From the NCBI RefSeq assembly GCF_030499575.1, contig NZ_JASTLC010000001.1:9138001-9202000 (forward strand): a stretch of DNA of 64,000 nucleotides, read 5' to 3'. Of the stretch, positions 7,730-54,238 are shown piece by piece. Within the stretch, counting starts at the first letter, position 1. The number at the start of each line of letters is the position of its first letter. Both the position numbers and the translations under genes were made by a program. A model generated the notes under the pieces. It was not told the origin of the DNA. It saw only the letters and a program-made list of their open reading frames with translations, and searched no databases. The stretch is from Streptomyces sp. DG2A-72 (lineage in GTDB: Bacteria; Actinomycetota; Actinomycetes; Streptomycetales; Streptomycetaceae).

Positions 7730-8668
7730 TCAGTGGCAGAGTCGTGCCTCGTGCTCCGCGTGCCCGCGGGGCTCCAGCTGGAAGGTGCAGTGCTCGACGT
7801 CGAAGTGGTCGCCGAGGCAGCCCTGGAGCTCGTGCAGCATCTTCTCGTGGCCGATCGCGCTCAACACCTCGGAGCGCACGACGACGTGCACGGACAGGAC
7901 CGGCATGCCGGAGGTGATCGTCCAGGCGTGCAGGTCGTGGACGTCCTGGACGCCGTCGAGGGCCAGTATGTGCGCCCGTACCTCCGCCATGTCGACGTCC
8001 TTGGGGGCCGACTCCAGCAGGACGTCGAGGGTCTCGCGCAGCAGCTTCATGGTACGGGGCACGATCATCAGGCCGATGACCAGCGAGGCGATCGGGTCGG
8101 CGGCCTGCCAGCCCGTGGTGAGGATCACGGCCGCGGAGATCAGCACCGCGACCGAGCCCAGCGCGTCCGCCGCCACCTCCAGGAACGCGCCGCGCACGTT
8201 CAGGCTCTCCTTCTGCCCGCGCATCAGCAGCGTCAGCGACACCAGGTTCGCGACCAGACCGATCAGACCGAACACGATCATCGGGCCGCCCTCGGTGCCG
8301 GCCGGCGTGAAGAACCGCTGGATCGCCTCGAACAGGACATAGCCGCCGACCCCGAGCAGCAGCAGACAGTTGGCGAGGGCGGCGAGGATCTCGGCGCGGG
8401 CGTACCCGAAGGTGCGGTTGCCGGTGGCCGGGCGGCCCGAGAAGTGGATCGCGAGGAGGGCCATGCCGAGGCCCAGCGCATCCGTCGCCATGTGCGCCGC
8501 GTCCGCGACGAGGGCGAGCGAATCGGCGACGACGCCGCCGACGATCTCGACCACCATGACGCCGAGCGTGATCGACAGCGCGACGCGCAGCCTGCCGCGG
8601 TACGCAGCTGTCGCCGTACCGCCGGCGGGTGCGCCGTGCGCATGCCCGTGATCGTGCCCAGCCCCCAT
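7730..8668 (-). CDS. Cation diffusion facilitator family metal exporter (CzcD-like)
   Basis: A 312-residue integral membrane antiporter that exports divalent metals, probably zinc, cadmium or cobalt. The N-terminus is His-rich (HDHGHAHG). Six hydrophobic segments follow, with the metal-site motifs DAAHMATDALG in helix 2 and EVAADALGSVAV in helix 5. A cytoplasmic C-terminal domain (DGVQDVHDLHAWTITSGMPV) ends with His and Cys residues (HFDVEHC, HAEHEARLCH). AGGAGGG lies about 9 nt before the ATG. Upstream, a hairpin-forming inverted repeat (8762-8790) could be an operator. Confidence 0.92.
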   Translation of the reverse strand: MGAGHDHGHAHGAPAGGTATAAYRGRLRVALSITLGVMVVEIVGGVVADSLALVADAAHMATDALGLGMALLAIHFSGRPATGNRTFGYARAEILAALANCLLLLGVGGYVLFEAIQRFFTPAGTEGGPMIVFGLIGLVANLVSLTLLMRGQKESLNVRGAFLEVAADALGSVAVLISAAVILTTGWQAADPIASLVIGLMIVPRTMKLLRETLDVLLESAPKDVDMAEVRAHILALDGVQDVHDLHAWTITSGMPVLSVHVVVRSEVLSAIGHEKMLHELQGCLGDHFDVEHCTFQLEPRGHAEHEARLCH

Positions 8669-9075
8669 GGCGGCAGCCCTCCTGTGTTCCGTCCGGGATC
8701 ACAGTGAACTACGGGCGGGGGGTATCGGGCAACGCGGCACTGAACACCGTTGTCATATGCCCTGACCTGCGCAAACGAAGTGCAGGTCAGTAGGCCGGCG
8801 ATCGGTCTGAGCCTTGCGTGGCCGTGCGCCGTTCCCTGTCGCGAATATCCGTTCTGCGACCGCGATTTTGTGTGCAGGGCAGGCGATCCCTGATGATGAT
8901 CACGGCAAAGGCGAGGGCAGATCGTGTCGACCGGACCATGAACGATCGGTGAACACGAACTTCCCATCATCCGATAGCCTCTGCCGACATGCCGCCCGCC
9001 TGGTGCATCCAAGGGGCGCCCCCACCACGTACATGACCGGCGCGGAGCGTCGGCATTCCCAGGGAGTGAGTTCGG
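8669..9075. other. Divergent intergenic region (407 bp)
   Basis: Non-coding gap between the CDF exporter and the envelope-glycoconjugate operon. It holds the inverted repeat at 8762-8790 and, near 8950-8980, a weak TGAACA...TAGCCT pair that might be a promoter for the rightward operon, although the spacing is long. I see no other gene or repeat. Confidence 0.4.
8762..8790. promoter_or_regulatory. Perfect 9-bp inverted repeat, candidate operator
   Basis: CTGACCTGC at 8762-8770 is repeated inverted as GCAGGTCAG at 8782-8790 around an 11-nt spacer. It lies between two divergent promoter regions rather than after a gene, so a protein-binding site is more likely than a terminator. Metal-dependent control of the exporter is an inference from position only. 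Confidence 0.4.
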
Positions 9076-10854
9076 TTGTCGACCGCCATCCTCACCGGTC
9101 AGCCGGTCCCCGGATCGTCGATCGAGGGTGATCTGCGGTCGCTCGGCTTCGAGGTGCGGACCGCATCGGACGCCGCCGACGCGGAGACGCTTCTCGCCGA
9201 GGTCCCCGGTGACCAGCGGGTCGCCGTCGTCGACACCCGCTTCGTCGGCCATCTGCACGCCCTGCGTCTCGGCCTCACCGACCCGCGCTTCCCGCTCGCC
9301 GCGATCCCGGGCGCCGTGACCGCCCAGCCCGGCGCCCGTCAGGCGCTGACCCGGGCGATGGCCCGCGAGAACTCCGCCGGCGGCGCACTGCTGGTGGACA
9401 GCTTCGCCGACCGCATCGCCGCCGCCCTCGGCGCCGATGTGCACCGCCCGGACCTCGGCAGCCTCGTGGCCGCCGTCCCCGCCGACCCGCAGGCCCGCAA
9501 CGAGGCACGGCAGGCGGTCGCCGCCATCGACGACGAGGCCGTACGCCTGAAGTCGGCCGTGAAGGCCCGCGACGGCTTCTTCACGACCTTCTGCATCAGC
9601 CCGTACTCGCGCCATCTGGCCCGCTGGTGCGCCCGCCGCGGCCTCACCCCGAACCAGGTCACCACCGCCTCCCTGCTCACCGCGCTCATCGCGGCGGGCT
9701 GCGCGGCCACCGGCACCCGGGGCGGATTCATAGCCGCCGGACTGCTGCTCCTCTTCTCCTTCGTCCTGGACTGCACCGACGGACAGCTCGCCCGCTACTC
9801 CCTGCAGTACTCCACACTCGGCGCCTGGCTCGACGCCACCTTCGACCGGGCCAAGGAGTACGCCTACTACGCGGGCCTCGCGCTCGGAGCGGCCCGCGGC
9901 GGCGACGACGTATGGGCCCTGGCGCTGGGCGCGATGATCCTTCAGACCTGCCGGCACGTCGTCGACTTCTCCTTCAACGAGGCGAACCACGACGCCACCG
10001 CCAACACCAGCCCCACCGCGGCCCTTTCGGGCAAGCTGGACAGCGTCGGCTGGACGGTCTGGGTGCGCCGGATGATCGTCCTGCCGATCGGCGAGCGCTG
10101 GGCGATGATCGCCGTCCTGACGGCGGCCACCACCCCCCGCATCACCTTCTACGCGCTCCTCATCGGCTGCGCCTTCGCGGCGACGTACACCACGGCGGGC
10201 CGCGTGCTGCGATCGCTGACGCGCAAGGCGCAGCGCACGGACCGAGCGGCGCAGGCGCTCGCGGACCTCGCGGACTGCGGTCCGCTCACCGAACTGGTCC
10301 TTCGCGCGGGGCGTGGCACTTATCCCCGTGGTGGTTATTACGCCGCTTTTGCCGGCGGTCTCCTGGTGGTGATCTCCGCCGCACTTTGGGGCGCCGGATG
10401 GCAGACCGTTCTGTGTGCCCTCGCCTATGTCGTCCTGTCCGCCGCCGCCGTCCAGAACCCGCTCAAAGGCGCTCTGGACTGGCTGGTTCCGCCTTTCTTC
10501 CGCGCCGCTGAATACGGGACCGTCCTCATCCTGGCAGCTGAATCAGAGGTGAACGGGGCGCTTCCCGCGGCTTTCTGCCTGGTGGCCGCTGTCGCCTACC
10601 ATCACTACGACACGGTCTATCGCATCCGCGGCAACGCGGGCGCCCCGCCGACGTGGCTGGTGCGGGCGGTCGGGGGGCACGAGGGCCGGACGCTGGTGGT
10701 CGTCGTGCTGGCCGCGCTGCTCACCGGCGCGCAGTTCGAGGTCGCGCTCACGGTCCTGGCCGGGGCCGTCGCCCTGGTGGTGCTCGTCGAGAGCACCCGC
10801 TTCTGGGTGTCCGCCGGGGCACCCGCCGTACACGACGAAGGAGAACCCGCATGA
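9076..10854 (+). CDS. Large membrane CDP-alcohol phosphotransferase (DUF5941-like)
   Basis: A 592-residue membrane enzyme. An N-terminal soluble part (about 170 residues, MSTAILTGQPVPGSSIEGDL onward) resembles an uncharacterised nucleotide-transferase-like domain. The CDP-alcohol phosphatidyltransferase core follows, with the full catalytic signature DCTDGQLARYS, GAWLDATFDRAKEYA, which transfers a phospho-alcohol from a CDP donor. Further hydrophobic segments extend to the C-terminus, longer than the usual roughly 200-residue enzyme. The start is TTG at 9076 after GGGAG. It overlaps the next gene by ATGA. As first gene of the operon it probably makes the membrane-linked phosphoalcohol product; donor and acceptor are unknown. 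Confidence 0.85.
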   Translation: MSTAILTGQPVPGSSIEGDLRSLGFEVRTASDAADAETLLAEVPGDQRVAVVDTRFVGHLHALRLGLTDPRFPLAAIPGAVTAQPGARQALTRAMARENSAGGALLVDSFADRIAAALGADVHRPDLGSLVAAVPADPQARNEARQAVAAIDDEAVRLKSAVKARDGFFTTFCISPYSRHLARWCARRGLTPNQVTTASLLTALIAAGCAATGTRGGFIAAGLLLLFSFVLDCTDGQLARYSLQYSTLGAWLDATFDRAKEYAYYAGLALGAARGGDDVWALALGAMILQTCRHVVDFSFNEANHDATANTSPTAALSGKLDSVGWTVWVRRMIVLPIGERWAMIAVLTAATTPRITFYALLIGCAFAATYTTAGRVLRSLTRKAQRTDRAAQALADLADCGPLTELVLRAGRGTYPRGGYYAAFAGGLLVVISAALWGAGWQTVLCALAYVVLSAAAVQNPLKGALDWLVPPFFRAAEYGTVLILAAESEVNGALPAAFCLVAAVAYHHYDTVYRIRGNAGAPPTWLVRAVGGHEGRTLVVVVLAALLTGAQFEVALTVLAGAVALVVLVESTRFWVSAGAPAVHDEGEPA

Positions 10855-11603
10855 TCGGCCTCGTGCTGGCGGCAGGCGCCGGACGGCGTCTGCGCCCCTA
10901 CACCGACACCTTGCCGAAGGCACTGGTGCCGGTGGGGCCCGCGGGCATCGAGGGCGAACCGACCGTGCTGGACCTCACCCTCGCCAACTTCGCCGAGATC
11001 GGCCTCACCGAGGCCGCGGTCATCGTCGGCTACCGCAAGGAGGCCGTGTACGAGCGCAAGGCGGCCCTCGAAGCGAAGTACGGCCTCACGCTCACGCTCA
11101 TCGACAACGACAAGGCCGAGGAGTGGAACAACGCCTACTCCCTGTGGTGCGGCCGTGATGCCCTCAAGGACGGCGTGATCCTTGCCAACGGCGACACCGT
11201 CCACCCGGTCTCCGTCGAGAAGACGCTGCTCGCCGCCCGCGGTGACGGCAAGAAGATCATCCTGGCCCTCGACAGCGTGAAGTCCCTCGCGGACGAGGAG
11301 ATGAAGGTCGTCGTGGACCCCGAGAAGGGCGTCCAGAAGATCACCAAGCTGATGCACCCCGCCGAGGCCACCGGCGAGTACATCGGCGTCACGCTCATCG
11401 AAGGCGACGCCGCCCCCGAGCTGGCCGACGCGCTGAAGACCGTGTGGGAGACCGACCCGCAGCAGTTCTACGAACACGGCTACCAGGAGCTGGTGAACCG
11501 CGGCTTCCGTATCGACGTGGCGCCGATCGGCGAGGTCGACTGGGTCGAGATCGACAACCACGACGATCTCGCCCGGGGACGGGAGATCGCGTGCCGCTAC
11601 TGA
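10851..11603 (+). CDS. Sugar- or alcohol-phosphate nucleotidyltransferase
   Basis: A 250-residue cytoplasmic NTP-transferase. The nucleotide-binding N-terminus is MIGLVLAAGAGRRLRPYTD with the PKALVPV lysine, followed by ILANGDTVH for metal and substrate binding; the C-terminus has VDWVEIDNHDDLARGRE. It most resembles enzymes that activate a phosphorylated sugar or polyol with CTP or UTP. Placed between two CDP-alcohol transferases and a glycerol-phosphate-dehydrogenase-like gene, it is likely a CTP-dependent cytidylyltransferase supplying the CDP-activated alcohol (inference). ATG at 10851 overlaps the previous stop, and the next gene starts 13 bp before its end. Confidence 0.87.
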   Translation: MIGLVLAAGAGRRLRPYTDTLPKALVPVGPAGIEGEPTVLDLTLANFAEIGLTEAAVIVGYRKEAVYERKAALEAKYGLTLTLIDNDKAEEWNNAYSLWCGRDALKDGVILANGDTVHPVSVEKTLLAARGDGKKIILALDSVKSLADEEMKVVVDPEKGVQKITKLMHPAEATGEYIGVTLIEGDAAPELADALKTVWETDPQQFYEHGYQELVNRGFRIDVAPIGEVDWVEIDNHDDLARGREIACRY

Positions 11604-12652
11604 CCAGGCTCATCCCCTCACCGGTCGTCGTCGACATCCGCCCGGGTGCCCTCGACGACCTGGGCGACGTGCTCGCCGACGAGCGCATCTCGCACTCCGG
11701 CAAGCTCGCCGTCGCGGTCAGCGGCGGCTCCGGCGCCAAGCTGCGTGAGCGCATCGCCCCCTCGCTGCCGGGCGCCACCTGGTACGAGGTGGGCGGCGGC
11801 ACCCTCGACGACGCGATCCGGCTGGCCGCCGAGATGAAGGCCGGCCACTACGACGCGGTCGTCGGGCTCGGCGGCGGCAAGATCATCGACTGTGCCAAGT
11901 TCGCCGCGGCGCGGGTCGGCCTGCCGCTGGTCGCCGTACCGACGAACCTCGCGCACGACGGCCTGTGCTCGCCGGTCGCGACCCTCGACAACGACGCGGG
12001 CCGCGGCTCGTACGGCGTGCCCAACCCGATCGCCGTCGTCATCGACCTGGACGTGATCCGCGAGGCCCCGGCCCGGTTCGTGCGCGCCGGTATCGGCGAC
12101 GCGGTCTCCAACATCTCGGCGATCGCGGACTGGGAACTGGCGGTCCGCGTCAAGGGCGAGAAGATCGACGGCCTCGCCGCGGCCATGGCCCGCCAGGCCG
12201 GCGAGGCCGTGCTCAGGCACCCCGGCGGCATCGGGGACAACGACTTCCTCCAGGTGCTCGCCGAGGCGCTGGTGCTCAGCGGTATCGCCATGTCGGTGTC
12301 GGGCGACTCCCGCCCGTCGTCCGGGGCGTGCCACGAGATCAACCACGCCTTCGACCTGCTTTACCCGCGTCGCGCCGCCGCCCACGGCGAGCAGTGCGGC
12401 CTTGGCGCCGCCTTCGCGATGTGGTTGCGCGGAGCCCACGAGGAGTCGGTCCACATGGCCGAGGTGCTGCGCCGGCACGGACTGCCGGTGCTGCCGGAGG
12501 AGATCGGCTTCACGACCGAGGAGTTCATCAAGGTCGTGGAGTTCGCCCCTCGGACCCGGCCCGGCCGCTACACGATCCTCGAACACCTCGACCTCACCAC
12601 CGACCAGATCAAGGACACCTACGCCGACTATGTCAAGGCCATCGGTAGCTGA
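11591..12652 (+). CDS. Iron-containing alcohol dehydrogenase, glycerol-1-phosphate dehydrogenase-like
   Basis: A 353-residue NAD(P)-dependent dehydrogenase of the glycerol/G1P dehydrogenase and dehydroquinate synthase superfamily. Signs: the dinucleotide-binding GLGGGKIIDCAKFAAARVGLP region, VAVPTNLAHDGLCSPVA, and metal-binding Asp/His residues in ARFVRAGIGDAVSN, SGACHEINHAFDLL and AAAHGEQCGLG. Members such as AraM reduce dihydroxyacetone phosphate to sn-glycerol-1-phosphate. The GTG at 11591 overlaps the preceding stop. In context it should provide the alcohol phosphate activated by the upstream nucleotidyltransferase. Confidence 0.86.
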   Translation: MPLLTRLIPSPVVVDIRPGALDDLGDVLADERISHSGKLAVAVSGGSGAKLRERIAPSLPGATWYEVGGGTLDDAIRLAAEMKAGHYDAVVGLGGGKIIDCAKFAAARVGLPLVAVPTNLAHDGLCSPVATLDNDAGRGSYGVPNPIAVVIDLDVIREAPARFVRAGIGDAVSNISAIADWELAVRVKGEKIDGLAAAMARQAGEAVLRHPGGIGDNDFLQVLAEALVLSGIAMSVSGDSRPSSGACHEINHAFDLLYPRRAAAHGEQCGLGAAFAMWLRGAHEESVHMAEVLRRHGLPVLPEEIGFTTEEFIKVVEFAPRTRPGRYTILEHLDLTTDQIKDTYADYVKAIGS

Positions 12653-13409
12653 ACTCCGCCCGGTCGTGCACCCCGCCGGGGTCAAGGACCGGCGCAGCGG
12701 TGAGCACTGGGCGGGACGCCTCTACATGCGCGAGGTGTCCCTGCGGATCACGCGTTCCCTGGTGAACACCAAGGTCACGCCCAACCAGCTCACGTACCTG
12801 ATGACCCTCTGCGGCGTGCTCGCGGCCCCCGCCCTGCTGGTGCCGGGGATCTCGGGCGCCTTGCTCGGCGTGCTGATGGTCCAGCTCTATCTGCTGCTCG
12901 ACTGCGTCGACGGCGAAGTGGCGCGCTGGAAGCAGCAGTTCTCGCTCGGCGGGGTCTACCTGGACCGGGTCGGTGCCTATCTGTGCGATGCCGCGGTGCT
13001 CGTCGGCTTCGGCCTGCGCGCCGCCGACCTGTGGGGCTCCGGGCGCATCGACTGGCTGTGGGCGTTCCTCGGCACCCTGGCCGCCCTCGGCGCGATCCTG
13101 ATCAAGGCCGAGACCGACCTCGTCGGCGTCGCCCGCCACCAGGGCGGACTGCCGCCCGTCAAGGAGGCCGCGTCCGAGCCGCGTTCCTCCGGCATGGCGC
13201 TGGCCCGCAGGGCCGCCGCGGCGCTGAAGTTCCACCGGCTGGTGCTCGGTATCGAGGCGTCCCTGTTGATCCTGGTCCTGGCCGTTCTGGACGCGATGCG
13301 TGGCGACCTGTTCTTCTCCCGGCTCGGTGTCGCGGTGCTGGCCGGCATCGCGCTTGTGCAGACCCTGCTGCACCTGGTCTCCATCCTCGTGTCGAGCAGG
13401 CTCCGGTGA
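12630..13409 (+). CDS. CDP-alcohol phosphatidyltransferase family membrane protein
   Basis: A 259-residue membrane enzyme, the second of its kind in the operon. The catalytic signature is DCVDGEVARWKQQ followed by GVYLDRVGAYLCDAA, with the usual spacing of the Asp residues; several hydrophobic helices surround it. A short soluble N-terminus (VVHPAGVKDRRSGEHW) precedes NTKVTPNQLTYLM, a conserved approach to the active site. It starts at ATG 12630, inside the previous gene by 23 bp, and its stop overlaps the glycosyltransferase start (GTGA). It probably attaches a phospho-alcohol to a lipid or polymer acceptor; the exact substrates are not evident. Confidence 0.87.
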   Translation: MSRPSVAELRPVVHPAGVKDRRSGEHWAGRLYMREVSLRITRSLVNTKVTPNQLTYLMTLCGVLAAPALLVPGISGALLGVLMVQLYLLLDCVDGEVARWKQQFSLGGVYLDRVGAYLCDAAVLVGFGLRAADLWGSGRIDWLWAFLGTLAALGAILIKAETDLVGVARHQGGLPPVKEAASEPRSSGMALARRAAAALKFHRLVLGIEASLLILVLAVLDAMRGDLFFSRLGVAVLAGIALVQTLLHLVSILVSSRLR

Positions 13410-14290
13410 GCCCCGGGATGAAGGTCGGGGCGGTCATCATCACCATGGGCAACCGCCCCGAGGAGCTCAGGGCCCTGCTCGACTCGGTCGCCAAGCAGGA
13501 CGGTGACCCGGTCGAGGCCGTCGTCGTGGGCAACGGCTCACCCGTCCCCGACGTCCCCGACGGCGTCCGCACGATCGAACTGCCCGAGAACCTCGGCATC
13601 CCCGGCGGCCGCAACGTCGGCATCGAGGCCTTCGGGCCGAGCGGCCGGGATGTCGACATATTGCTCTTCCTCGACGACGACGGCCTGCTCGCCCAGCACG
13701 ACACCGCCGAGCTGTGCCGCCAGGCCTTCGCGGCCGACCCGAAGCTCGGCATCGTCAGCTTCCGCATCGCCGACCCGGACACCGGCGAGACCCAGCGCCG
13801 CCACGTGCCCCGGCTGCGCGCCTCCGACCCGCTGCGCTCCTCCCGGGTCACCACGTTCCTCGGCGGCGCCAACGCCGTACGCACCCAGGTCCTCGCCGAA
13901 GTCGGCGCGCTCCCGGACGAATTCTTCTACGCACACGAGGAAACCGACCTCGCATGGCGGGCCCTCGACGCGGGCTGGATGATCGACTACCGGTCCGACA
14001 TGGTGCTGTACCACCCCACGACCGCGCCCTCGCGGCACGCGGTCTATCACCGCATGGTCGCCCGCAACCGCGTATGGCTCGCCCGCCGCAACCTCCCCGC
14101 GCCCCTGGTCCCCGTCTACCTCGGCGTCTGGATGCTGCTCACCCTGCTGCGCCGCCCCTCGCGGCCCGCGCTCAGGGCGTGGTTCGGCGGATTCCGGGAA
14201 GGCTGGACGACCGAGTGCGGGCCCCGCAGGCCCATGAAGTGGCGTACGGTGTGGCGGCTGACTCGACTGGGCCGACCCCCCGTCATCTGA
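13406..14290 (+). CDS. Family 2-type glycosyltransferase
   Basis: A 294-residue GT-A fold glycosyltransferase. The nucleotide-sugar-binding start is VGAVIITMGNRPEELRALL, with ENLGIPGGRNVGIE and the metal-binding acidic motif LLFLDDDGLL; FLGGANAVRTQVL and DEFFYAHEETDLAWR form the acceptor side, as in rhamnosyl- and galactofuranosyltransferases. The C-terminal segment LVPVYLGVWMLLTLL may associate with the membrane. It is coupled to the upstream CDP-alcohol transferase by GTGA overlap; a Met at 13418 is an alternative start. A 97-bp gap then precedes the ABC exporter genes. It likely adds the sugar part of the product. Confidence 0.88.
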   Translation: MSPGMKVGAVIITMGNRPEELRALLDSVAKQDGDPVEAVVVGNGSPVPDVPDGVRTIELPENLGIPGGRNVGIEAFGPSGRDVDILLFLDDDGLLAQHDTAELCRQAFAADPKLGIVSFRIADPDTGETQRRHVPRLRASDPLRSSRVTTFLGGANAVRTQVLAEVGALPDEFFYAHEETDLAWRALDAGWMIDYRSDMVLYHPTTAPSRHAVYHRMVARNRVWLARRNLPAPLVPVYLGVWMLLTLLRRPSRPALRAWFGGFREGWTTECGPRRPMKWRTVWRLTRLGRPPVI

Positions 14291-14387
14291 CAAGCTCGGT
14301 CCTGAGAGCACCCGGCCGTCACCCACGGCCGCCGGCTCATGCCCTGCCCGCACAGGCTGCGCATCTCGAAGACGAAAGTTTCTTTTG

Positions 14388-15317
14388 GTGAGTGAGACAA
14401 CGCACGACGGTGGAGTCGCGGTGAGCGCGGCTCCGTCGCCCGACGAGCGACTGACCGCGGCCCAGCTCGCCGCGAAGTACGGACTGTCCGTGAGCGGCGC
14501 CCGCCCCTCACTCGTGGAATACGTCCGCCAGCTCTGGGACCGGCGTCACTTCATCCTCGCCTTCTCCCGGGCGAAGCTGACCGCCCAGTACAGCCAGGCG
14601 AAGCTCGGCCAGCTCTGGCAGGTGGTCACCCCGCTGCTGAACGCGGCCGTGTACTTCTTCATCTTCGGCGTCATCCTCGAGGCCGACCGGGGCATGTCCC
14701 GCGAGGTGTACATCCCGTTCCTGGTCACCGGCGTCTTCGTGTTCAGCTTCACACAGAGCTCGGTGCTGGCCGGCGTCCGCGCGATCTCCGGCAACCTCGG
14801 CCTGGTCCGCGCCCTGCACTTCCCGCGCGCCTCGCTGCCGGTGTCCTTCGCGCTCCAGCAGCTTCAGCAGCTGCTCTACTCGATGATCGTGCTGTTCGCG
14901 ATCACCATGGTCTTCGGCAGCTTCCCGGACCTGTCCTGGCCCCTGATCGTCCCGGTGCTCGCCCTGCAGTTCCTCTTCAACACCGGCCTCGCCCTGATCG
15001 TGGCCCGGGCCGGCTCCAAGACCCCGGACCTCGCGCAGCTGATGCCGTTCGTGATGCGTACATGGATGTACGCGTCCGGCGTGATGTACTCCATCCCGAT
15101 CATGCTGGCCGACAAGCCCCAGTGGATCGCCAATGTCCTGCAGTGGAACCCGGCCGCCATCTACCTGGACCTGATGCGCTTCGCGCTCATCGACGGCTAT
15201 GGCTCCGAGAACCTCCCGGACCATGTGTGGGCGGTCGCGCTCGGCTGGTCCGTGCTGCTCGCCGTCGGCGGCTTCGTCTACTTCTGGAAGGCGGAGGAGA
15301 GGTACGGCCGTGGCTGA
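14388..15317 (+). CDS. ABC-2 type polysaccharide/teichoic acid exporter, permease (TagG-like)
   Basis: A 309-residue inner-membrane permease of the TagG/RfbD type that exports lipid-linked glycopolymers. After a cytoplasmic N-terminus (LVEYVRQLWDRRHFILAFSR, then AKLGQLWQVVTPLLNAAVYF) there are six hydrophobic segments. The amphipathic start and QLWQVVTPLL motif are typical of polysaccharide ABC-2 permeases. GTG at 14388 is the likely start, with TTG at 14385 possible. Its stop overlaps the ATPase start by 8 bp, so the two halves are made together and probably export the product of the five upstream enzymes. Confidence 0.9.
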   Translation: MSETTHDGGVAVSAAPSPDERLTAAQLAAKYGLSVSGARPSLVEYVRQLWDRRHFILAFSRAKLTAQYSQAKLGQLWQVVTPLLNAAVYFFIFGVILEADRGMSREVYIPFLVTGVFVFSFTQSSVLAGVRAISGNLGLVRALHFPRASLPVSFALQQLQQLLYSMIVLFAITMVFGSFPDLSWPLIVPVLALQFLFNTGLALIVARAGSKTPDLAQLMPFVMRTWMYASGVMYSIPIMLADKPQWIANVLQWNPAAIYLDLMRFALIDGYGSENLPDHVWAVALGWSVLLAVGGFVYFWKAEERYGRG

Positions 15318-16089
15318 GCACCCGAGGGACGAACGGATCCCCACCGTCATCGCCGACGACCTGCACATCGTCTACCGCGTCAACGGTGCCAAGACCGGCA
15401 AGGGCAGCGCCACGGCAGCGCTCAGCCGCATGCTCAAGCGCGGCGAGGAACGCGGAGTGCGCAAGGTGCACGCCGTGCGAGGCGTGTCCTTCGTCGCCTA
15501 CCGCGGCGAGGCCATCGGTCTGATCGGCTCCAACGGTTCCGGCAAGTCGACGCTGCTGCGCGCCATCGCCGGCCTGCTTCCCGCCGAGAGCGGCAAGGTC
15601 TACACCGACGGCCAGCCCTCCCTGCTCGGGGTGAACGCGGCCCTGATGAACGACCTCACCGGCGAACGGAACGTCATATTGGGCGGGCTCGCCATGGGCA
15701 TGTCCCGCGAGGAGATCAAGGAGCGCTACGAGGAGATCGTCGACTTCTCCGGCATCAATGAGAAGGGCGACTTCATCACCCTGCCCATGCGCACCTACTC
15801 CTCCGGCATGGCGGCCCGGCTGCGCTTCTCCATCGCCGCCGCCAAGGACCACGACGTCCTGATGATCGACGAGGCGCTGGCCACCGGCGACCGCAAATTC
15901 CAGAAGCGCTCCGAGGAACGCATCCGCGAACTGCGCAAGAGCGCGGGCACCGTGTTCCTGGTCAGTCACAACAACAAGTCGATCCGCGACACCTGCAACC
16001 GCGTCCTGTGGCTGGAACGCGGCGAGCTGCGCATGGACGGACCTACCGAAGAGGTCATCAAGGAGTACGAGAAGTTCACGGGCAAGTAG
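15310..16089 (+). CDS. ABC-type polysaccharide/teichoic acid exporter, ATPase (TagH-like)
   Basis: A 259-residue ATP-binding subunit paired with the overlapping permease. Walker A is GLIGSNGSGKSTLLRAIAG, the ABC signature YSSGMAARLRFSI and Walker B DVLMIDEALATGD, followed by the switch His in VFLVSHNNKS. The polysaccharide-export subclass is supported by the long insert before Walker A (RMLKRGEERGVRKVHAVRGV) and the GDRKFQKRSEERI segment. It lacks the long C-terminal carbohydrate-binding domain of some relatives. The GTG at 15310 lies 8 bp inside the permease gene. It is the last gene of the operon. Confidence 0.92.
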   Translation: MAEHPRDERIPTVIADDLHIVYRVNGAKTGKGSATAALSRMLKRGEERGVRKVHAVRGVSFVAYRGEAIGLIGSNGSGKSTLLRAIAGLLPAESGKVYTDGQPSLLGVNAALMNDLTGERNVILGGLAMGMSREEIKERYEEIVDFSGINEKGDFITLPMRTYSSGMAARLRFSIAAAKDHDVLMIDEALATGDRKFQKRSEERIRELRKSAGTVFLVSHNNKSIRDTCNRVLWLERGELRMDGPTEEVIKEYEKFTGK

Positions 16090-16413
16090 TCCACCCGGAC
16101 CCGGGCGAAAAGCCCACCACGCTTCCCAGGGCCTCGCAGGAACCCTTCCGGCGGGGCCCCGCGTCTGCAAAGGAGACGTCAACTTCGGTCGGCCCAAGGA
16201 ATCTTGATGCCAATCGGTGTGTTCTTGTGATGCGCAGGACACCCCGACGGACCCTGTTGCGTTGTACAACGTAAGCTGTACCGGTCCCGATAAGCGGCAA
16301 GTGGGGCGATAGTGCGCGACACTCCACGCCAGGGCAGCCGCGCCGACGACCGGGTGGCGTGTCCGAAATAGTGTGTATTGGGTCGACGGTGTAGAACGGG
16401 AGATGTGACGGCA
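16090..16413. other. Intergenic region with the probable hopanoid-operon promoter
   Basis: A 324-bp non-coding stretch between the exporter and the hopanoid operon. It contains the 12-bp palindrome at 16260-16271 and a GGAAC...CGTCT pair near 16130-16155 whose 18-bp spacing is long for a sigma-E-type promoter. A GTG-initiated version of the leader ORF would start at 16405. I see no terminator of normal shape. Confidence 0.45.
16260..16271. promoter_or_regulatory. 12-bp perfect palindrome upstream of the hopanoid operon
   Basis: CGTTGTACAACG reads the same on both strands and lies about 150 bp before the leader ORF of hpnC. It is a plausible regulator-binding site for the operon; no cognate regulator can be named. 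Confidence 0.35.
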
Positions 16414-16479
16414 ATGGCTACGGAAACTCCCCAGGTCGACGCAGCATGTGCCGTCCCCGCCCCGGGCAGCGAACGGTGA
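16414..16479 (+). CDS. Possible 21-aa leader ORF coupled to hpnC
   Basis: ATG 16414 opens a 21-codon frame (MATETPQVDAACAVPAPGSER) whose TGA at 16477-16479 overlaps the GTG start of hpnC at 16476. An in-frame GTG at 16405 lies just after GGGAG. The exact stop/start overlap repeats the coupling seen throughout the operon and suggests that ribosomes finishing the leader start hpnC. Whether the peptide has any function of its own is unknown; it has no resemblance I recognise. Confidence 0.35.
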   Translation: MATETPQVDAACAVPAPGSER

Positions 16480-17357
16480 CGGGAACCGGCGCCGCGCCGA
16501 CCGGTGATCCGGAGCGCGGCACGCTCGACAAGGCCGCGGACGAGAACTTCCCCGTGGCCCCGTTCTTCCTGCCCAGGGCCTGGCGCGCCGACCTCGTGGC
16601 CGTGTACGGCTTCGCCCGCCTCGTCGACGACATCGGCGACGGCGATCTCGCCCCCGGGGGTGTCGACGCCCGGCTGCTCGGCGTGTCCCCCGCGCAGGCC
16701 GAGGACCGGCTGCTGATGCTGGACGCCTTCGAGGCCGACCTTCACCGCGTGTTCGATTCGACGCCGCGTCACCCGCTGCTGCAGCGCCTCCAGCCGACCG
16801 TCCGGCGCCGCGCGCTGAGCCCGGACCCCTTTCTCGGCCTGATCGCCGCCAACCGCCAGGATCAGCTCGTCTCCCGCTACGAGACCTACGACGACCTCGT
16901 TGCGTACTGCGAACTGTCCGCCAACCCCGTCGGCCGTCTCGTCCTCGCCGTCACCGGCACCGAGACCCCCGAGCGGGTCAGGCGCTCCGACGCGATCTGC
17001 ACGGCCCTGCAGATCGTCGAGCACCTCCAGGACGTTGCCGAGGATTTCGGCCGCGACCGTATCTATCTGCCCGCCGCCGACATGAAACGCTTTCATGTCC
17101 AGGAGGCGGATCTCGCCGCGAAAACCGCGGGCGCATCGGTGCGCGCCCTGGTTGCATACGAGGCGCAACGCGCCCGCGATCTCCTGAATGAAGGCGCCCC
17201 CCTGGTGGGTAGCGTCCACGGCAGGTTGAAGCTGCTGCTCGCAGGGTTCGTGGCGGGGGAAGGGCGGCAATCCATGCGATTGCCGCCGCCGAATACGACG
17301 TACTTCCCGGCCCGCCCGAACCCGGCAAGATCCAGTTGCTGCGTGAGGTGGGCCTGA
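16476..17357 (+). CDS. hpnC: Squalene synthase HpnC (hydroxysqualene synthase), apparent frameshift near the 3' end
   Basis: HpnC converts presqualene diphosphate to hydroxysqualene in the HpnCDE route to squalene. The trans-isoprenyl synthase fold is clear: first Asp-rich motif FARLVDDIGDGDL, second motif QIVEHLQDVAEDFGRDRIYL. The GTG at 16476 overlaps the leader ORF stop; an ATG at 16446 would add 10 residues. As written the frame stops at 17357 with an unnatural end (MRLPPPNTTYFPARPNP). After the five G residues at 17255-17259 the other frame reads GRAAIHAIAAAEYDVLPGPP then EPGKIQLLREVGLTLRGEG, the normal family ending. That frame stops at 17377, overlapping hpnD by GTGA. One G is therefore missing, either by mutation or consensus error. 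Confidence 0.9.
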   Translation: MTGTGAAPTGDPERGTLDKAADENFPVAPFFLPRAWRADLVAVYGFARLVDDIGDGDLAPGGVDARLLGVSPAQAEDRLLMLDAFEADLHRVFDSTPRHPLLQRLQPTVRRRALSPDPFLGLIAANRQDQLVSRYETYDDLVAYCELSANPVGRLVLAVTGTETPERVRRSDAICTALQIVEHLQDVAEDFGRDRIYLPAADMKRFHVQEADLAAKTAGASVRALVAYEAQRARDLLNEGAPLVGSVHGRLKLLLAGFVAGEGRQSMRLPPPNTTYFPARPNPARSSCCVRWA

Positions 17358-33257: not shown

Positions 33258-33456
33258 GCTTACGTTCGCCACCAATCCGGACGGACGCCCAATCCTGCCG
33301 CCGCCCGGAGACCGCTCAACTCACCCGTGAACGGCAGGAGCGGGGGACCCACAGGTACAACCGCCTGTTCCGGTCTCCGGAACGGCTAGGGGTTAAGCCG
33401 CCACCGCGCGGCCGGACATCTCCAGTCCGCACCCGACAGCTCACCTCGTAGGCGCC
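33258..33456 (+). promoter_or_regulatory. ydaO/yuaA-type c-di-AMP riboswitch
   Basis: A structured leader directly upstream of the LysM/M23 gene. Conserved pieces in order are CGCCACCAATCCGG near the 5' end, GCAGGAGCGGGGGACCCAC (from about 33334), CTAGGGGTTAAGCCGCC (33386 on), and the hallmark 3' block GACAGCTCACCTCGTAGGCG at 33435-33454. The terminal CGCC/GGCG can close stem P1. In Streptomyces this class commonly precedes cell-wall hydrolase genes and lowers their expression when c-di-AMP is high. The ribosome binding site GGAGAGGA follows at once, at 33456-33463. Confidence 0.88.
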
Positions 33457-33471
33457 GGAGAGGAATTCGCC

Positions 33472-54153: not shown

Positions 54154-54227
<74 letters not shown>

Positions 54228-54238
54228 CCAGCTTTGAT

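Follow-up and report, generated by a model that had tools for sequence, protein, structure and literature searches.

A conserved seven-gene operon of Streptomyces as a candidate CDP-glycerol supply for a teichoic-type envelope polymer

The DNA analysed here (the window) is a stretch of 64,000 nucleotides from Streptomyces sp. DG2A-72, bases 9138001-9202000 on a 10.3 Mb contig of a genome totalling 10.58 Mb. Relatives of the window at 89-94% identity are Streptomyces. Seven mostly overlapping genes, here called A to G, occupy positions 9076-16089 on the plus strand, where a sequence-only reading had placed an uncharacterised envelope glycoconjugate operon, and Pfam and NCBIfam scans agree with its list of parts. 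Gene A (9076-10854, TTG start, 592 residues) matches CDP-OH_P_transf and, at 10240..10851 (residues 389-592), DUF5941 (PF19365). Gene B (10851-11603, 250 residues, overlapping A by 4 bp) matches NTP_transferase, and gene C (11591-12652, GTG start, 353 residues, overlapping B by 13 bp) matches Fe-ADH_2/Fe-ADH. Gene D (12630-13409, 259 residues, 23 bp overlap with C) is a second CDP-OH_P_transf protein. Gene E (13418-14290, 290 residues), starting 8 bp past D, encodes a GT2 glycosyltransferase (Glycos_transf_2). Gene F (14388-15317, with an alternative TTG start at 14385; 309 residues; ABC2_membrane) follows about 95 bp past E and encodes an ABC-2 permease of the TagG/Wzm type. Gene G (15310-16089, 259 residues, 8 bp overlap with F; ABC_tran) encodes an ABC ATPase of the TagH/Wzt type lacking the C-terminal glycan-binding domain, with TagH as its nearest NCBIfam model. 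The TTG of gene A, the first codon of the operon, is conserved in 72 of the 74 loci with an assignable start of A. A scan for promoters and terminators over 8660-16500 returned no site of either type. The operon presumably corresponds to the gene numbers SCO6752-6757.

The operon is a stable feature of the genus. A gene-content comparison across Streptomyces, as the sequence-only reading had proposed, found A to G in unchanged order and collinear with the hopanoid genes HpnC and HpnD in 22/22 sampled genomes, namely the window and 21/21 further Streptomyces, so the arrangement is not due to chance. Among 80 named loci (79 Streptomyces and one filed as Kitasatospora), 71 carry the complete set through HpnC-HpnD; six of the nine incomplete ones run to a contig end, and three lack F or G internally. 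These three are draft Streptomyces loci with intact flanks, two without G (L057, L084) and one without F (L056), and could reflect real loss or assembly collapse with a paralogous TagGH pair. Paralogues of F (L153:5795-6637, 67% identical) and G (L153:6630-7412, 83% identical) do form such a pair, about 9.5 kb from the only strong TagF gene of the window's genome.

Among the 246 genomes of our class-level sample, 60 carry C and 60 carry B, 59 carry both and 61 at least one of them; the two unshared cases sit at contig ends (G084, where a fragment of B is visible at the edge, and G097). B adjoins C on the same strand in 59 of 60 loci (the window, 21 Streptomyces and 38 others), the sole exception being G079 with about 10 kb between them on the same strand. 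Such strict pairing makes the product of C the likely substrate of B. Gene C scores 246.1 bits against the sn-glycerol-1-phosphate dehydrogenase model NF002022 versus 94 bits for glycerol dehydrogenase. Its matches to sn-glycerol-1-phosphate dehydrogenase entries of the PDB reach 133-153 bits versus 75 bits for 1kq3, and 3ce9, labelled glycerol dehydrogenase, scores 146 bits. By these comparisons, C is closest to sn-glycerol-1-phosphate dehydrogenase (EgsA/AraM) and not to glycerol dehydrogenase. Three of its residues, presumably the metal ligands Asp, His and His, are nearly invariant (D170 in 140/141 loci, H248 and H265 in 141/141).

Gene B has its best PDB matches in LicC (1jyk, 45 bits over residues 3-111), 4jd0 (27 bits) and 6pd1. 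LicC is a CTP:phosphocholine enzyme. The motifs LAAGxGxRL...PK and NGDTxHP are each kept in 136/137 loci and E[VI]DxxxDL in 137/137. B matches NTP_transferase families and not the TagD-type models PF01467/TIGR01518; its structure model, with a predicted local distance difference test score of 49, was not used. We propose B as a LicC/IPCT-like nucleotidyltransferase and candidate cytidine triphosphate (CTP):glycerol-1-phosphate cytidylyltransferase. The known bacterial user of sn-glycerol-1-phosphate is PcrB. PcrB/GGGP synthase was matched in 0/246 genomes at E 1e-10, with B. subtilis and archaeal controls positive, which rules it out as the user here. Two Streptomyces genomes have extra copies between an RNase E/G gene and ribosomal L21-Obg: a second B-C pair in G163 (L150:8802-10603), and a second C with no B in G133 (L151:9379-10506), some 6-9 kb from a pair of TagF matches.

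Genome content connects the B-C pair to teichoic acid synthesis. TagF-type polymerases are present in 58/61 genomes with B or C versus 36/185 without (Fisher p 1.8e-27, not phylogeny-corrected), and TagD at 100 bits or more occurs in 0/61 versus 18/185 (Fisher p 0.008, likewise uncorrected). Within family f5, both B-C genomes carry TagF, and the B-C-less G004, G032, G050 and G083 are not among the TagF genomes. In the window's genome, TagD and TagA were unmatched at E 1e-10, and TagA was unmatched in 19/22 Streptomyces. Its one TagF match lies 5 Mb from the operon and is nearer to TarF (155 bits) than to TarL (62 bits). Judged from the names of their relatives, the members of f17, the largest group among the 38 loci outside Streptomyces, are Streptosporangiaceae; f28 is Motilibacter. 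These 38 loci contain D in 28, E in 26, F in 20, G in 22 and DUF5941 in 20, together with an LCP ligase in 26, GDPD in 17, an IspD-SDR fusion in 21, TagF in 3 and HpnC/HpnD in 0; these counts are lower bounds, as several loci are short or ended by contig edges. One locus, L146, shows B-C-TagG-TagH-TagF on a single strand, with a TagF nearer to TarF (glycerol, 257 bits) than to TarL (ribitol, 96 bits). The placement of B-C in teichoic-acid type loci of other families and the co-occurrence with TagF narrow the earlier envelope glycoconjugate to a polymer of the teichoic type or a precursor of it. No intact known teichoic or inositol pathway made up of the same enzymes was found: the seven genes include no TagA, TagB/TagF, TagD or TagO, in which the operon also differs from a canonical wall teichoic acid operon.

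We suggest that the operon probably serves to build and export a glycerol-phosphate polymer of teichoic type for the envelope, or a lipid-linked precursor of one. On balance, we favour a teichoic-type synthesis fed by an archaeal-type supply of cytidine diphosphate (CDP)-glycerol that is probably the mirror image of the usual one. The pathway drafted earlier, with CDP-activation of glycerol phosphate, phospho-transfer, glycosylation and TagGH-type export, is favoured by sequence, neighbourhood and co-occurrence. In the scheme that we infer, stereochemistry included, C would reduce dihydroxyacetone phosphate to sn-glycerol-1-phosphate, and B would join this with CTP into CDP-glycerol of the hand opposite to the TagD product, so that the pair would take over the role of TagD. 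Gene A, with a soluble donor and an extra membrane module resembling that of choline phosphotransferases, would transfer glycerol phosphate to a lipid acceptor. D and E, a module common to other actinobacterial teichoic loci, might serve in linkage or priming, a TarF-like polymerase encoded elsewhere in the genome would extend the chain, and F/G would carry the product out. A more specific version is that Streptomyces and relatives assemble lipid-anchored polyglycerolphosphate intracellularly from the CDP-sn-1-glycerol of C and B, with A priming or anchoring the chain on a lipid and D as a base-less linkage or scaffold part. This would amount to a lipoteichoic acid without LtaS and with the sn-glycerol-1-phosphate hand; we put it forward tentatively, as a possibility that is rather doubtful in its entirety.

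The proposed lipid acceptor depends on the architecture of gene A. Residues 1-165 form a soluble domain that may be a degenerate nucleotidyltransferase, residues 166-385 the CDP-alcohol phosphotransferase with an intact DxxDGxxAR(8)GxxxDxxxD signature, and residues 386-592 the DUF5941 membrane module. The signature is intact at 114/115 loci, and L130 gave no motif. The N-terminal domain is short and modelled at low confidence; its comparison with B-family profiles gave probabilities of 3.2% and 1.8%, and PF12804 was exactly at its cut-off in one (P0141) of three relatives tested. DUF5941 is predicted to add three to four C-terminal transmembrane helices (residues 420-580), in a model that drew on 56 sequences, 44 of which are missing the domain. 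In many Streptosporangiaceae loci, DUF5941 is a separate gene adjoining A. The model, DUF5941 included, aligns with the whole fold of the eukaryotic choline phosphotransferases CHPT1/CEPT1 up to residue 590-592 at 11-12% identity, and this coverage of the complete fold suggests the lipid acceptor. A is thus modelled as a probable CEPT-like, lipid-directed transferase, an assignment that we hold with middling confidence. Characterised prokaryotic CDP-alcohol phosphotransferases have a six-helix architecture with soluble acceptors (PMC4634129, 2015). Should the assignment hold, A would be a bacterial enzyme of this family that uses a lipid as its acceptor.

The sequence-only reading counted two CDP-alcohol transferases; that both of them work is not supported in the case of gene D. 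D is by homology of the six-transmembrane type, and the fourth Asp of its signature is Ala in the window. The position is Ala in 100/101 Streptomyces, His in 27/28 other loci and His in 20/20 additional loci. Replacing this Asp, the catalytic base, by Asn nearly abolishes the activity of a PIP synthase (PMC4634129). D is thus a homologue that has lost the catalytic base. E adjoins D in 15 of 20 further D loci inspected, whose settings include a TagD cluster (G221, the sole TagD above cut-off) and three IspD-SDR ribitol-type clusters (L199, L202, L203). D occurs beyond B-C and in both TagD and ribitol settings, so the D-E module belongs to actinobacterial teichoic loci in general and is bound to no single alditol. 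Its step in linkage or priming is a guess. A replacement of TagA by D-E has no support from co-occurrence: D shows no anti-correlation with TagA across the 246 genomes (TagA in 20/81 genomes with D versus 38/165 without; p 0.87).

Several observations weigh against the proposed glycerol-phosphate polymer or against parts of its synthesis. Gene C stays below the NF002022 equivalog cut-off (246.1 versus 413 bits), and the co-occurrence tests ignore phylogeny. Among the 36 TagF genomes without B-C, 25 are also without a strong TagD, so TagF requires no known CDP-glycerol source and other CDP-alcohols must serve there. TagF is missing in 3/61 B-C genomes, namely G098 and G160 of family f14 and G243, a Streptomyces with the whole operon; all three have B-C and no PF04464 match. 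Weak matches to the TagD family (59-66 bits, cut-off 165) occur in seven B-C Streptomyces. The window's genome has a separate ribitol-type cluster (L183:5148-13037) that comprises an IspD-SDR scoring above the cut-off for ribitol-5-phosphate cytidylyltransferase, a protein weakly similar to TagF, a GT2 bearing a TarS linker, and PhoD. CDP-ribitol consequently has its own source, which leaves B-C as the only candidate CDP-glycerol source found in this genome. DUF5941 was found in 13 genomes without B-C, and D in 81/246 genomes, 27 of them without B-C, so that A and D need not use the product of B-C. In genomes without the pair, the CDP-alcohol source adjoining A or D was TagD in G221 only and IspD-SDR in three loci, and none was identified in the others. 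For gene A, Foldseek ranked Af2299 first and CHPT1 only at E 0.08. The polymers described for S. coelicolor in the available text of PMC7831098 are a diglycosylphosphate and a teichulosonic acid. Glycerol phosphate is part of neither, an argument against a glycerol polymer being universal.

The product could instead be a small phospholipid or phosphoglycolipid, with CDP-glycerol from B-C, transfer by A onto a diacylglycerol-type lipid, glycosylation by E and flipping by F/G. The modelled CEPT-like architecture of A, the lack of a polymerase in the operon and the three B-C genomes without PF04464 would all fit this. The presence of TagF in 58/61 B-C genomes, the TagG/TagH-type exporters and the LCP and GDPD genes nearby in the loci of other families argue for a polymer, and we consider a small lipid unlikely, though worth keeping in view. 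The same co-occurrence with TagF and the co-oriented TarF-like gene of L146 speak against a glycan of non-teichoic backbone that carries glycerol phosphate from B-C as side groups, A and D being the membrane transferases. Such decoration would be consistent with L127:5455-11254 (family f26), where B-C immediately precedes GlfT2 and a TagG/TagH-like (Wzm/Wzt-like) pair on one strand, with L113, where B-C lies near GT4 genes, and with the pneumococcal capsule genes gtp1 and gtp2, annotated as glycerol-2-phosphate dehydrogenase and nucleotidyltransferase in the available text of PMC3493582; we regard it as improbable.

A pathway for inositol or another polyol phosphate, in which an IPCT-like B would activate inositol-1-phosphate and A/D of the DIPP-synthase kind would transfer it, draws on weak matches of NF041135, NF040950 and NF045883 to A, D or B and on UniRef names of A relatives that include DIPP synthase. 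All equivalog scores for IPCT, DIPPS and PIPS are far under their curated cut-offs (e.g. 63 vs 180, 53 vs 170), and it would be left unexplained why B is so strictly paired with an enzyme resembling glycerol-1-phosphate dehydrogenase, which makes this pathway quite improbable. The neighbouring HpnC and HpnD might suggest a role in hopanoid side-chain modification, and the earlier description had noted the operon's place beside the hopanoid cluster. They stand immediately downstream in 22/22 Streptomyces, but adjoin 0/38 loci from other families, and even in the genus a gene-free gap of 356 bp separates G from HpnC, which is shifted by about 3.5 kb in L169. The tie therefore does not extend beyond Streptomyces, and a hopanoid function has very little to recommend it.

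The favoured glycerol-phosphate synthesis resembles the TagD/TarF wall teichoic acid pathway of the B. subtilis type in its proposed CDP-glycerol precursor, TagGH export, a TagF/TarF-type polymerase encoded elsewhere and the LCP ligases adjoining related loci. It differs in that TagD is absent with B-C in its place, B belonging to the NTP_transferase family and not to PF01467, in that C implies sn-glycerol-1-phosphate, and in the unmatched TagA of the window's genome. The pneumococcal gtp1-gtp2-gtp3 genes make CDP-2-glycerol. Compared by annotation and not by sequence, they likewise combine a dehydrogenase and a nucleotidyltransferase for an unusual CDP-glycerol, although they concern another position isomer and their kinase, gtp3, has no counterpart in the operon. 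The archaeal and AraM-PcrB lipid pathways share the sn-glycerol-1-phosphate dehydrogenase and differ by PcrB. Gene A has the domain order of Af2299/Af DIPP synthase, the top PDB sequence match for both A and D, but bears DUF5941 and has a short N-terminal domain. Af2299 uses CDP-glycerol and does not process lipids (PMC4634129). The modelled A shares with CHPT1/CEPT1 a soluble CDP-alcohol donor and six core helices followed by a C-terminal helical module, from which it is set apart by low identity and bacterial origin.

The same synteny (crtB, tagH, tagG, araM, CDP-alcohol transferase, GT2, nucleotidyltransferase) appears among duplicated orphan clusters that the available text of PMC13118837 (2026) associates with teichoic acid by annotation. 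The operon has therefore not gone entirely unnoticed. We found no paper in the open-licence literature naming B-C as a CDP-glycerol source. Streptomyces are known to contain wall and lipoteichoic acids built on glycerol, yet no clear LtaS orthologue is reported there and the route was left open (available text of PMC3196553). In S. hygroscopicus, the polyglycerolphosphate lipoteichoic acid is nearly identical to wall teichoic acid and a shared route was proposed; the term "sn-glycero" does not occur in the same available text. Our locus L057 comes from a different S. hygroscopicus strain, in which A-F are present and G was not found beside them. In genomes that lack TagD, B-C is a specific candidate for supplying CDP-glycerol, and could explain glycerol teichoic acids made without the usual enzyme. 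If true, the archaeal hand of glycerol phosphate would be part of a bacterial envelope. The naturally base-less D family raises a second question.

Upstream of the operon, a divergent cation-efflux gene (7730-8668, minus strand) is kept in many sampled Streptomyces. Elsewhere, the window contains a ydaO/yuaA c-di-AMP riboswitch (33303-33467, 59 bits) and a tRNA-Pro (GGG) gene (54154-54230).

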